This document shows, in pieces, positions 21,688 to 24,916 of a stretch of 36,516 nt of DNA; position 1 is the stretch's first letter; every line of letters begins with the position of its first letter. Where the stretch lies: positions 1 through 36,516 of the forward strand of contig JAQTUW010000026.1 in the NCBI GenBank assembly GCA_028707085.1. Direction: 5' to 3'. The translations under genes were made by a program, and so were the position numbers. The DNA comes from Methylococcales bacterium. GTDB taxonomy: Bacteria > Pseudomonadota > Gammaproteobacteria > Methylococcales > Methylomonadaceae. The notes below the pieces were generated by a model. The model saw only the letters and a program-made list of their open reading frames with translations, had not been told where the DNA came from and ran no database searches.

Positions 21688-23049
21688 TTAGCCTATGTTT
21701 TTGGCCAGTCTGGCCGCATAGCCGATATAGCTGTGCGGGGTCAGCGCCAGCAATTCGGTTTTGGCCGCCGCCGGGATGTCCAGTTTTTCCACAAAGGCCC
21801 GCATGTCTTCGGCGGTGACCCGTTGGCCGCGAGTCAGTTCCTTGAGTTTTTCATAGGGCTTTTCAATGCCGTAGCGGCGCATCACGGTCTGTATCGGCTC
21901 CGCCAGCACTTCCCAGTTATTATCCAGATCCTGATTGATCAGTTGCGGGTTGATTTCCAGTTTGGAAATGCCTTTAAGGGTAGCCTGGATGGCGATGCTG
22001 GTATGGGCGATGCCGACGCCGATGTTGCGCAGCACGGTGGAGTCGGTCAGATCGCGCTGCCAGCGCGATACCGGCAGTTTCTCGCTCAAAAAGCCGAAAA
22101 TCGCGTTTGCCAGGCCCAGATTGCCTTCCGAGTTTTCAAAATCGATGGGATTGACCTTGTGCGGCATGGTGGACGAGCCGACTTCGCCGGCCACGGTTTT
22201 TTGCCGGAAGTAACCCAGGGAAATATAGCCCCAGACATCGCGGTCGAAATCCAGCAGGATGGTATTAAAGCGCGACAGGGTGTGGAAAAACTCGGCCATG
22301 TAGTCGTGCGGCTCGATCTGGATGGTGTAGGGGTTGAACGCCAGCCCCAGCGACTCTACAAAGTTTTGGGCAAACAGCGGCCAGTCCAGATCGGGATAAG
22401 CGACGCAATGGGCATTGTAATTGCCGACCGCGCCGTTGATTTTGCCCTGTAGCGGCACGGTCGCCAGTTGCTGGCGCTGGCGTTGCAGTCTGGCGGCGAC
22501 ATTGGCGAACTCCTTGCCGGTGGTGGTCGGGGTGGCGGACTGGCCGTGGGTGCGCGACAGCATGGGCTGTTCGGCGTTTTCCACCGCCAGACGGGTGATG
22601 GCGGCAATCACAGCATCGATTTCCCTGAGGATTTCCCCCCGGCCCTGTTTCAGCATCAGCGCGTAAGACAGGTTGTTAATATCTTCGGAGGTGCAGGCGA
22701 AATGGATGAATTCGTTGATGTTGTGCAATTCCGGATTATTGCCGATTTTGGCCTTCAGGAAATACTCGACGGCCTTGACATCGTGATTGGTGGTTTTTTC
22801 GATGTCTTTGATGGCCTGGGCGTCGGCTTCGGAAAAGCTGCTGACGATGTCGTCCAGCAGCGTTGTCGCCTCGGCGGACAGCGGCGGTACTTCAAGGATT
22901 TCCGGTTGCGCGGCCAGTGCCTGCAACCAGCGCACTTCCACCTCCACCCGATAACGGATCAGGCCGTATTCGCTGAAAATCGGCCGCAAGGCGTCAACTT
23001 TGTCGGCGTAACGGCCGTCTATGGGGGAAATCGCGGTGAGTGTGGTCAT
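21688..23049 (-). CDS. purB: adenylosuccinate lyase
   Basis: A 453-residue protein close in length to Escherichia coli PurB (456). The start [17 protein letters not shown] at 23049 is chosen; an extension of 17 codons would overlap the upstream gene further. It performs two fumarate-releasing steps: SAICAR to AICAR, and adenylosuccinate to AMP. The fumarase/aspartase-superfamily signature [16 protein letters not shown] is present, as are [12 protein letters not shown] with the general-acid histidine and [12 protein letters not shown]. Its ATG overlaps the TGA of the TOPRIM gene (ATGA), so it should be translationally coupled to that accessory gene. In E. coli the upstream neighbour is hflD. 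Confidence 0.95.
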
Positions 23050-23756
23050 AGGGGGTTTGTCCTGGTAAAACGGAGTGAGTTGAAAAGGGTTTCCAGCCAT
23101 TCTGAAAAGTTCGGGGTGGCGGATTTATCCAGAATGCCTGCTTTTAAGGCTGCATTAAGCGACAGTCCAGGTGTTTTTTGCCAGGCGCGCCAGGTGAAAA
23201 CTTTTGCCTTGGCTGTGTGTAATGCTGTATCAAATAAACTGAACGGCAGTTTTTCAATGGTCTGGTTCGCGTGGGACAATAATGATTGCTGCTGACGATC
23301 TGTAATCAAGGTTGCGATAAAGTCTTCCAGCATGCCATCTTGCTGATGGTCTGGCATGATCCACAAGCCAAGACCCGCCAGCCCGTTTGAATGGGTAAAA
23401 ATGTCGCCGCTACCGTGCGCCGCTACTGATGGAATGATGTAGCCTGCTGATTGCAACTTCCCAGTAAGCAGGGCGTATCTGGCGGAAAATCCACCCTGAT
23501 TGGCGCCATTATAATCTGCATCCAGCACGATCCCCAGTTTGTCTATGTCGCCACTTGTTAATTGATTTAGCCGTATGGGCAGATTGTTAATCAGGTTTCC
23601 CCAACCATCGCCTGATGGGTTGTCGCTCTCTAATGGCACTTCAGCGGGTGTTAAAAACTTGACACCAACATAATCCTGACCGAATAACTGGTCGCAATAG
23701 GCGGAAAGGAACGCCTGGTCATTTTTGCCTTCAACCAGTAAGACATTTATGGCCAT
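23046..23756 (-). CDS. TOPRIM-fold DUF3226 protein, probable nuclease partner of the ATPase
   Basis: A 236-residue protein with the TOPRIM metal-binding signature: Glu9 in LLVEGKND, then Asp79 and Asp81 in [11 protein letters not shown] later block, [18 protein letters not shown], is typical of DUF3226. TOPRIM domains cut or rejoin nucleic acids in OLD nucleases, topoisomerases, primases and RNase M5. The gene overlaps the upstream ATPase by one base (TGATG) and purB by four. An ATPase next to a separate TOPRIM protein recalls PARIS (AriA/AriB, where AriB is DUF4435) and the fused ATPase-TOPRIM GajA of Gabija. A defence role is inference; the family itself is uncharacterised as far as known here. 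Confidence 0.8.
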
Positions 23757-24916
23757 CAGCGCACCTCAAGCTGGGACGCTGTGACGACCTTCAATGCTTC
23801 TTCGTCATAAACAGTGGCAATGATTTTGCCATGATCGCTGGTCAGTCTGCTTTTAGAGAGTTTAAGCAATACGCCGTCCTCAGGGCTTTCAATGGCAGCC
23901 TTGGCAAAGCTTTCGATGCAATCCCAGCTATGGGTGGCGGCGAACACCTGGATATTCAGGTCGTTGGAAAGTTTGAATATCATTCGCCAGACCTGTTCCT
24001 GTACGCTGTAGTGCAAGCCGTTTTCAAATTCGTCCATGAGTAAAAAACCGCCATTGGCGGAAACCAGTTTTAGCGCTAGTTGCAGGATGCGTAACACGCC
24101 GTCGCCCAGGCTTTTCAGGGGAACGTATTTGGGAAAACTGGATAGTTTAACGTTGATGTCGGACTGACCATCCGCATTACGATTAATTTTTAAGCTTTCG
24201 TAGTCCGGCGTAATAATCTGTAAAGCCCGCTTTACAATTTCTTCATCCTCAACATCGTCAATCCTGCCCCATTCGATATCCAATTCTTCTTGTGATAACA
24301 ATTGAGTTGAAATTACGCCACAGGGTTTATCATAATTTTCCTGACGCAAAGAATAGGGACTTTGAGAAGGTCCGGGCAGATCCAAATAAATCGGCGGGCA
24401 TGGTTTGTCATTCTTCCGGATTTCAAGAACTTGCCTGATAACATCGCCCGGTTGCAAGGAGCCTAGTTTTGATTTTGATACTGTTTCACGCGATACAAAA
24501 TAAACATTTTGTCCATCGTTATTAGTCCATTGGACGTTTTGGTCTCTGTTGGTAAATTGCTTTTCTGTTTCTCTCTGGAATGTATGTTCGATAGTTAATT
24601 TTTCAGACAGGCTGCCAATTTCTATCGTGGTGTGATCAGTTTCGGGGAACTGGCGGCCTGTGAAATAATGCTGAAACGGTAAAGTTGCCTTGGGATCGCC
24701 TATTTCATTGGGTTTTGTGGCATATTTCTCACCCCGGGTGATAGCAATTTCTTCCAGTACCTCATGCTTGGCATTCCCGGCATAAATCTGCAACGCCTCC
24801 AGCACCGTACTTTTGCCGGAATTGTTTTTACCCACAATCAGATTCACCCGGCCGAGTTTGGTTATTTCCAGATCCGCCAGCATCCGGAAATTTTTAATGT
24901 GCAAATTGGTTAGCAT
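23756..24916 (-). CDS. AAA15/21-type ABC-like ATPase paired with the TOPRIM protein
   Basis: A 386-residue P-loop ATPase of the OLD/RecF-like group. Near the start are MLTNLHIKNFRMLADLEI and Walker A GKNNSGKST (about 29-37). At the C-terminal end are the signature-like SLGDGVLRIL, Walker B FLLMDEFENGLH and the H-loop ATHSWDCIE. A middle insert of about 180 residues without a recognised domain lies between the lobes. The ATG at 24916 is preferred over GTG at 24919 because AAGGA sits 6 bases upstream. It is cotranslated with the TOPRIM gene. Related ATPases sense phage proteins or DNA ends and gate a TOPRIM nuclease. The pair stands where hflD stands in E. coli between mnmA and purB. Confidence 0.82.
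   Translation of the reverse strand: MLTNLHIKNFRMLADLEITKLGRVNLIVGKNNSGKSTVLEALQIYAGNAKHEVLEEIAITRGEKYATKPNEIGDPKATLPFQHYFTGRQFPETDHTTIEIGSLSEKLTIEHTFQRETEKQFTNRDQNVQWTNNDGQNVYFVSRETVSKSKLGSLQPGDVIRQVLEIRKNDKPCPPIYLDLPGPSQSPYSLRQENYDKPCGVISTQLLSQEELDIEWGRIDDVEDEEIVKRALQIITPDYESLKINRNADGQSDINVKLSSFPKYVPLKSLGDGVLRILQLALKLVSANGGFLLMDEFENGLHYSVQEQVWRMIFKLSNDLNIQVFAATHSWDCIESFAKAAIESPEDGVLLKLSKSRLTSDHGKIIATVYDEEALKVVTASQLEVR

Follow-up and report, generated by a model that had tools for sequence, protein, structure and literature searches.

What does an ATPase and TOPRIM gene pair do between mnmA and purB, inside a housekeeping operon, and is it at home there? The question is raised by a contig of a Methylococcales bacterium (GenBank assembly GCA_028707085.1, contig JAQTUW010000026.1, positions 1 to 36,516, forward strand; the window, hereafter, is this whole stretch of 36,516 nucleotides), in which an original prediction, made from the letters alone, had seen the pair and proposed a defence role for it. 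We find that the pair is the candidate defence system catalogued in PADLOC as PDC-M38, its defence activity being predicted, and that its place between mnmA and purB is a core-gene defence hotspot, with fixed flanks and five module types in 21 of 32 genomes of the genus. The features concerned are as follows (ORF, open reading frame).

21688..23049, (-), purB, right flank of the slot, likely start 23049 (Pfam Lyase_1 1.5e-63, ASL_C 3.8e-53)
23046..23049, (-), ATGA overlap of the TOPRIM gene stop and the purB start codon (sequence)
23046..23756, (-), DUF3226 TOPRIM protein of the PDC-M38B family, predicted nuclease effector (ORF; Pfam DUF3226 2.8e-45; PADLOC PDC-M38B 3.7e-62)
23756..24919, (-), AAA_15/ABC-type ATPase of the PDC-M38A family (ORF; Pfam AAA_15 6.4e-29; PADLOC PDC-M38A 1e-125)
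24916..24939, (-), out-of-frame mini-ORF of 7 codons that opens within the mnmA 3' end and has its stop on the ATPase ATG (TGATG)
24926..26023, (-), mnmA, left flank of the slot (Pfam tRNA_Me_trans 3.3e-80)
26020..26484, (-), nudJ, upstream, overlapping mnmA (Pfam NUDIX 2e-15)

Both genes stand between mnmA and purB as predicted, with intact motifs and joined by a single shared base (TGATG), as ORFs, Pfam and PADLOC agree, and Pfam likewise confirms the neighbours nudJ, mnmA and purB. The ATPase may start at a GTG at 24919 (387 aa) or at an ATG at 24916 (386 aa), the latter 10 nt beyond the mnmA end, and carries Walker A (GKNNSGKST) and Walker B (FLLMDEFENG) motifs; the TOPRIM protein (236 aa) has Glu9, Asp79 and Asp81. 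The overlap of the TOPRIM stop with the purB start had not been remarked on before. In the alignment the window TOPRIM runs ten residues beyond the end of its closest relatives (...FK), and may there be reading into the purB leader. G+C content is 0.464 for the pair, vs 0.581 for mnmA and 0.573 for purB. An RNA element or retron in the interval was rejected, as an Rfam search at E 1 gave no match there; a promoter of the pair's own was likewise rejected, as a consensus scan of 21500-26700 gave four promoter-like sites, none of them on the strand of the pair and their number not above that in shuffled sequence.

Homology of both proteins to named families is far beyond chance. The two adjacent genes match the PDC-M38 models full length (PADLOC-DB 2.0.0), and a DUF3226 effector is thus already catalogued, PDC-M38B being the same family; the defence-type ATPase and TOPRIM architecture put forward by the original prediction is upheld to this extent. 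For the window ATPase, AbiLi is the second-best model name (9.4e-55), behind PDC-M38A and ahead of AriA (7.9e-29); at locus L135 the order of the first two is reversed (AbiLi 4.4e-41, PDC-M38A 5e-38). Among 22 aligned DUF3226 proteins, PDC-M38B is matched at E <=0.1 in 22, AriB in 7 (best 3.6e-4), mad4 in 5 (best 5.6e-5), and AbiLii in 3 (best 5e-4); GajA and OLD models are absent from the matches at E 0.1. E9, G10, D79, D81, P135, E144, and K183 are invariant in all 22, and the TOPRIM nuclease signature (conserved Glu, DxD, further acidic and Lys residues) is present as E9, D79, D81, E144, and K183. The 12 aligned ATPases keep Walker A (G.NN.GK), S.GDG, DEF[ED]NG, HS.DC, and a C-terminal E[VI]R, which in the window ends the protein as LEVR. 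An ABC-type ATPase lies directly upstream of the DUF3226 gene in at least 18 of 27 loci; the others are decayed, not resolved by ORF picking, or below the family cut-off.

Two closer identifications suggested by the original prediction fared less well. A split Gabija was rejected on the Pfam and PADLOC family models, the pair being two ORFs with purB as the downstream gene; membership of PARIS was rejected on the same models, the window TOPRIM having no AriB match at E 1 and being DUF3226 in Pfam with no DUF4435 match. By sequence, the pair is kin to AbiL and PARIS, yet is neither PARIS nor Gabija. Against solved structures, the ATPase N-terminus is closest to the OLD nuclease 6p74 (4.8e-10), and the TOPRIM profile finds AriB best, at non-significant E values of 0.17 (12 sequences) and 0.06 (22 sequences), with the LLVEG motif aligned to the AriB stretch that contains Glu26; Pfam OLD-like_TOPRIM touches the window TOPRIM below the cut-off (E 0.055).

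Slot occupancy was counted in 32 of 37 genus genomes (window included), namely those with mnmA and purB both on the fetched stretch; left out were G033 (no MnmA match), G019, G020, and G032 (no purB on the stretch), and G003, where the contig breaks off within a Septu-like ATPase directly behind mnmA. The gap is occupied in 21 genomes and empty, at about 30-150 bp, in 11. The occupants are listed here (HTH, helix-turn-helix).

PDC-M38, 6 genomes: window, L042, L044, L049, L057, L065 (PADLOC on four; the other two TOPRIMs 90-91% identical to that of L057)
Septu PtuA-PtuB, 9 genomes (PADLOC on L045, 1e-126 and 2.5e-76; others by tblastn)
PDC-S57, 2 genomes: L043 (2.2e-79), L048 (3.8e-80) (PADLOC)
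PDC-M28A/B/C, 1 genome: L041 (PADLOC)
ParE/RelE-like toxin with HTH antitoxin, 3 genomes: L062, L066, L072, the last with a 456-aa gene in addition (Pfam gives the toxin on L062 only, 1.9e-6, and the antitoxin, as HTH_3, on L062 and L072)

All cassette genes named in the slot are co-directional with the operon, and cassette G+C is below that of mnmA in 21 of 21 (mean difference -0.12). Control gaps above 300 bp are rare in the same genomes: nudJ-mnmA 0/32, purB-sporeAB 5/29, sporeAB-mtaB 1/28 (Fisher p against the slot 6e-9, 2e-4, and 4e-7, respectively, genomes being treated as independent). A defence-type module within a housekeeping operon, and not in a defence island, had been proposed for the window and is supported, the pair being a catalogued defence candidate; that the same slot is shared with Septu, PDC-S57, PDC-M28, and toxin-antitoxin modules had not been foreseen.

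Some further observations were made on these gaps. The purB-sporeAB insertions (L052, L056, L059, L067, L069), whose ORFs are known from reading frames only, hold a malic enzyme, named by eye, in three genomes and several other ORFs in two, that of L069 being a small ORF pair. The empty mnmA-purB gaps of several species (e.g., L050, L051, L053, L063, L064) show by eye a short imperfect palindrome resembling a repetitive extragenic palindrome, which might mark or attract exchange. The 456-aa orphan of L072 (G012:C49, reverse strand, 1417-2787), behind the toxin-antitoxin module, has no PADLOC match and no Pfam match above the cut-off; it has distant relatives on 29 plasmid records, the 15 listed showing 25-29% identity and SEC-C annotation, and is by position a candidate new defence gene. 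A decayed copy of the pair lies in a congener (L137, G019:C81, 3828-5341), the ATPase split over two ORFs and the TOPRIM shortened.

Occupants of the slot change within the genus. On a tree of 31 genus genomes (clpA, clpS, sporeAB, and mtaB; L049 dropped for too little sequence), a quick tree with 8 open branches of 28 on which changes cannot separate gain from loss, cargo state needs 16 changes (minimum 6); as the shuffled mean is 17.4, cargo shows no clustering by kinship. For its 5 carriers PDC-M38 requires 5 changes, as forced by the starred branches, and L064 (empty) and L065 (PDC-M38) are sisters with SH-aLRT support of 100. That the pair moves between loci, as the original prediction had asked, is seen in its presence at the slot in 6 of 32 genomes, in the separate change needed for each of the five carriers on the tree, and in its occurrence on plasmids. 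Identity within the genus is 43-61% for ATPases (13 of 15 pairs) and 44-55% for TOPRIMs (11 of 15), against 75-89% at the DNA level for mnmA and purB. The ATPase middle (alignment columns 47-306) is 20-41% identical in 13 of 15 genus pairs, vs 68-100% at the ends, and this hypervariable part is likely to be the sensing region. Partners appear exchanged as well: L044 and L065 have ATPases 92% alike and TOPRIMs 49% alike; L057 and L065 have TOPRIMs 91% alike and an ATPase middle 37% alike.

Junctions with mnmA differ by cassette type. All nine Septu and all three toxin-antitoxin cassettes have their first gene starting within the mnmA 3' end, 10-13 nt short of its final base; the M28 cassette starts on the mnmA stop codon; PDC-M38 ATPases start at +10 relative to the mnmA end in the window, L044, and L057, at -6 in L049, and in L042 and L065 lie behind an HTH ORF that resembles toxin-antitoxin remains. 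An out-of-frame ATG stands at the Septu/toxin start position in the window, L042, L057, L065, and the now-empty L071, and is absent from L044 and L049; this ATG, and with it the mini-ORF of the window, is perhaps a footprint of earlier occupants.

Does the pair stand in place of hflD, as the original prediction had it from the order nudJ-mnmA-hflD-purB of E. coli? This is so by position relative to E. coli only. Replacement was rejected: hflD (PF04356) is present in the window's own genome (G000:C44:79937-80506), and all 37 genus genomes have an hflD match away from mnmA, those with an empty mnmA-purB gap as well as those with a full one. Nor did the ORF lists of the fetched genus and order genomes show an hflD between mnmA and purB. 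Elsewhere in the class, other families often have an HflD-like ORF there, accompanied in some by an aconitase-like gene (both named by eye).

In the other genomes of the order that were read, the slot is mostly closed. The mnmA region was fetched for 14 of 24 other genomes of the order, and 13 of these stretches include purB; in 11 it follows mnmA directly (gap <80 bp), and the remaining two hold a glycosyltransferase 61 and a patatin-like ORF, the latter named by eye with a weak PADLOC phospholipase-effector match (2.2e-4). In a class sample of 185 genomes, MnmA-PurB and PurH-PurD places were compared among the matches listed, and 20 of the wide gaps of each kind, chosen by size, gave no match to cassette proteins, these being the only queries (tblastn 1e-3). 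As far as this sample shows, the mnmA-purB hotspot is limited to the genus. The pair itself is found more widely. Its closest relative found outside the genus, in a Nitrosomonadales metagenome-assembled genome, is 50% and 54% identical to the window proteins, as near as congeners. Chromosomal contexts of DUF3226-ATPase pairs are given below (TPP, thiamine pyrophosphate).

L080 (JACRPU010000062.1), 4985-6837: this closest outside relative, between purH and purD, stop overlapping the purD start by 4 nt (ATGA)
L135 (G245:C199): two tandem pairs between hisF and hisI, last stop overlapping the hisI start by 4 nt (ATGA)
L130, L131: pair between a TPP-enzyme gene and xseA
L133: pair between two GH57 genes
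Other five contexts: L075, downstream of ilvC; L132, downstream of a truA-like gene; L129; L076; L134

Five of the 10 distinct chromosomal contexts inspected (mnmA-purB included) thus place the pair between co-directional housekeeping genes; L134 resembles a defence operon, by eye only. Gene names in the nested contexts are by Pfam, that of hisF by eye (its family also holds hisA); L104, L106-L108, and L113 are excluded from the contexts, and L077 and the decayed L137 were judged by eye only. Of the 398 Pseudomonadota genomes sampled for this set, 15 have a match, 12 of them over the cut-off, and the nesting pattern is for this reason suggestive only. On plasmids, 10 records have a match; of five stretches read, four are replicons of 6-40 kb and the fifth is a region with phage tail genes on a 396-kb plasmid, the pair being a two-gene unit in 5 of 5. 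Relatives occur on five distinct viral contigs; phage records gave no match to the TOPRIM, and E. coli gave no DNA match to the Citrobacter pair.

We consider it probable, from the sequence comparisons, that the pair is an anti-phage module of PDC-M38 type, probably acting by abortive infection, in a slot that exchanges modules. The ABC-class ATPase would be a multimeric sensor and restraint, held together with the DUF3226 TOPRIM as a metal-dependent nuclease; a phage trigger, sensed through the hypervariable ATPase middle, would unleash the TOPRIM on a nucleic acid, either host RNA such as tRNA, or DNA. The pair would be a translationally coupled passenger of the nudJ-mnmA-purB operon and probably expressed as such, and the single-cassette slot at the mnmA stop codon would repeatedly swap defence and toxin-antitoxin modules within the genus, most likely by homologous recombination through the flanking genes. 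Models for this come from related systems: according to PMC12409363, AriA senses the trigger and AriB is released as a dimer, and the AriB E26A mutant loses tRNA cleavage; in PMC10440598, AAA domains are paired with TOPRIM (PARIS), RloB-like AbiLii, and HNH (Septu) effectors, and the AAA partners of TOPRIM and HNH effectors are treated as neutralisers in AbiL, PARIS, and Septu.

Several points weigh against this account. Fusobacterium AbiLii was toxic and not counteracted by its AbiLi, as reported in PMC3985639, so that the ATPase cannot be assumed to restrain its partner; for the window protein, the resemblance of the TOPRIM to AriB does not reach significance; an archaeon, too, has DUF3226 (the Methanocaldococcus control match), and its role there may differ; and our literature search found no phage or nuclease assay for the DUF3226/PDC-M38 family, nor a paper naming DUF3226 or PDC-M38. 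No integrase or repeats were seen at cassette edges (none of at least 14 bp in 23000-25000 of the window), and greater flank similarity between same-cassette genomes, looked for as a mark of recombination, was not clearly seen; the exchange route is for both reasons only our inference.

The anti-phage module might be kept with another chemistry, its TOPRIM cleaving DNA as OLD and GajA are described to do, and not RNA as AriB does. This is a serious possibility, if not the one we would expect: the structural nearness of the ATPase N-terminus to OLD and the sub-threshold OLD-like_TOPRIM hit speak for it, the best solved TOPRIM match being AriB, an RNase (not significant), and the lack of any GajA or OLD model among the families matched by the 22 members speak against it, and the evidence is weak in both directions. 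It is unlikely that the pair is instead a selfish toxin-antitoxin or addiction pair that landed in the operon by chance and persists by killing cells that lose it, with no real anti-phage role. Three of the 21 occupied slots do hold a toxin and antitoxin, PMC10440598 treats AAA-TOPRIM pairs as toxin-antitoxin-like, and coupling to purB would make loss costly; but 18 of the 21 cassettes are catalogued defence types (PADLOC on members of each type, the rest by similarity), these include Septu, for which an abstract reports inhibition of phage T6, and a hypervariable ATPase middle fits a trigger sensor over a simple antitoxin.

Very improbable, to our mind, is a housekeeping role tied to tRNA thiolation (mnmA) or to purine synthesis (purB, purH, purD, hisF), for instance as an RNA-processing pair. 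The three 4-nt overlaps found all fall at purine-linked steps (purB, purH-purD, hisF-hisI), which would suit such a role. The original prediction had named presence at this locus in all relatives, with no mobility, as the pattern that would favour it. This is not the pattern seen: 26 of 32 genus genomes are without the pair at the locus, 11 of them with nothing there, unrelated Septu, PDC-S57, PDC-M28, and toxin-antitoxin genes occupy the identical slot, and other copies lie on plasmids, beside xseA, and between GH57 genes.

If the pair is an anti-phage module, as we prefer to read it, a broader and rather doubtful extension suggests itself, in which operon nesting is a way of life. Promoterless DUF3226-ATPase cassettes (here also Septu and toxin-antitoxin cassettes) would insert between core genes running in the same direction, with their start at or within the stop codon upstream and, in many cases, an ATGA overlap at the far end with a purine- or histidine-pathway gene; they would be expressed with essential metabolism, could not be cleanly deleted without harm to a host gene, and would be swapped whole or by partner exchange, by way of the conserved flanks. 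The genes purB, purH-purD, and hisF-hisI are linked to AICAR (5-aminoimidazole-4-carboxamide ribonucleotide) and the purine pathway, and phages disturb nucleotide synthesis; AICAR-linked genes may let the module watch nucleotide synthesis.

Searches for defence genes usually turn to islands and mobile elements, and one based on islands would miss this slot, filled with defence or toxin-antitoxin genes in two thirds of the genomes examined from the genus: an ordinary operon acts here as a landing place for immunity genes. Reading mnmA-purB, purH-purD, hisF-hisI, and similar junctions is a cheap route to new modules, the L072 orphan being an example. Related species that carry or lack a cassette at a single fixed site form a natural system for studying exchange of immunity genes without integrases, and the cost of tying an essential gene to a possible toxin. 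Our literature search found no description of a slot for one small module within a core operon where start and stop codons overlap and modules of several types alternate.

Three other features of the window and its genome were recorded. The genome carries an AMO/pmoA family gene (7.9e-128), so that the host is likely a methane or ammonia oxidiser. At 2020-10945 (-) the window encodes a 2550-aa polyketide-synthase-type protein, followed by a pyridoxal phosphate aminotransferase; 30160-36081 is a low-G+C stretch of five ORFs with no Pfam match at 1e-5 and no PADLOC match at 1e-10.

How, then, does the window pair compare with known systems? From PDC-M38 it has no family-level difference; the operon slot and its turnover are additional here. 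With AbiL of Lactococcus (AbiLi ATPase and AbiLii) it shares the bicistronic form and an ATPase that matches AbiLi full length, though PDC-M38A scores better; it differs in the TOPRIM, which has no AbiLii match at E 1, with only weak matches in the three relatives named above, AbiLii being described as RloB-like in PMC10440598. The closest likeness to Gabija GajA and the OLD nucleases is an ABC ATPase N-terminus together with a TOPRIM active site; the window has two proteins, however, with the TOPRIM unfused and no GajB helicase adjoining. PARIS (AriA and AriB) likewise has separate ATPase and TOPRIM genes, with the AriA model match (outscored by PDC-M38A and AbiLi) and the LLVEG alignment as further likenesses, but its AriB, a DUF4435 protein, has chains of 308-316 aa vs the 236-aa DUF3226 protein here. 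Septu (PtuA ATPase and PtuB HNH) again joins an ATPase to a nuclease and fills the identical slot in 9 of 32 genomes, but with an HNH effector and a PtuA that begins within the mnmA 3' end. Core-gene defence hotspots are already known from P. aeruginosa (core defence hotspots cDHS1 and cDHS2) and E. coli, with fixed core-gene flanks and changing defence content (PMC10250203, PMC10121019). By the account given there, the median size is 26 kb for cDHS1 and 6 kb for cDHS2, their flanks are tRNA or tmRNA genes, and most carry mobile genes (none in 29% and 47%); the mnmA-purB slot, in contrast, spans 0.7-3.3 kb within one operon and takes one or two small modules, no mobility gene being seen among them, and its cassettes are co-directional with their neighbours and often overlap them.

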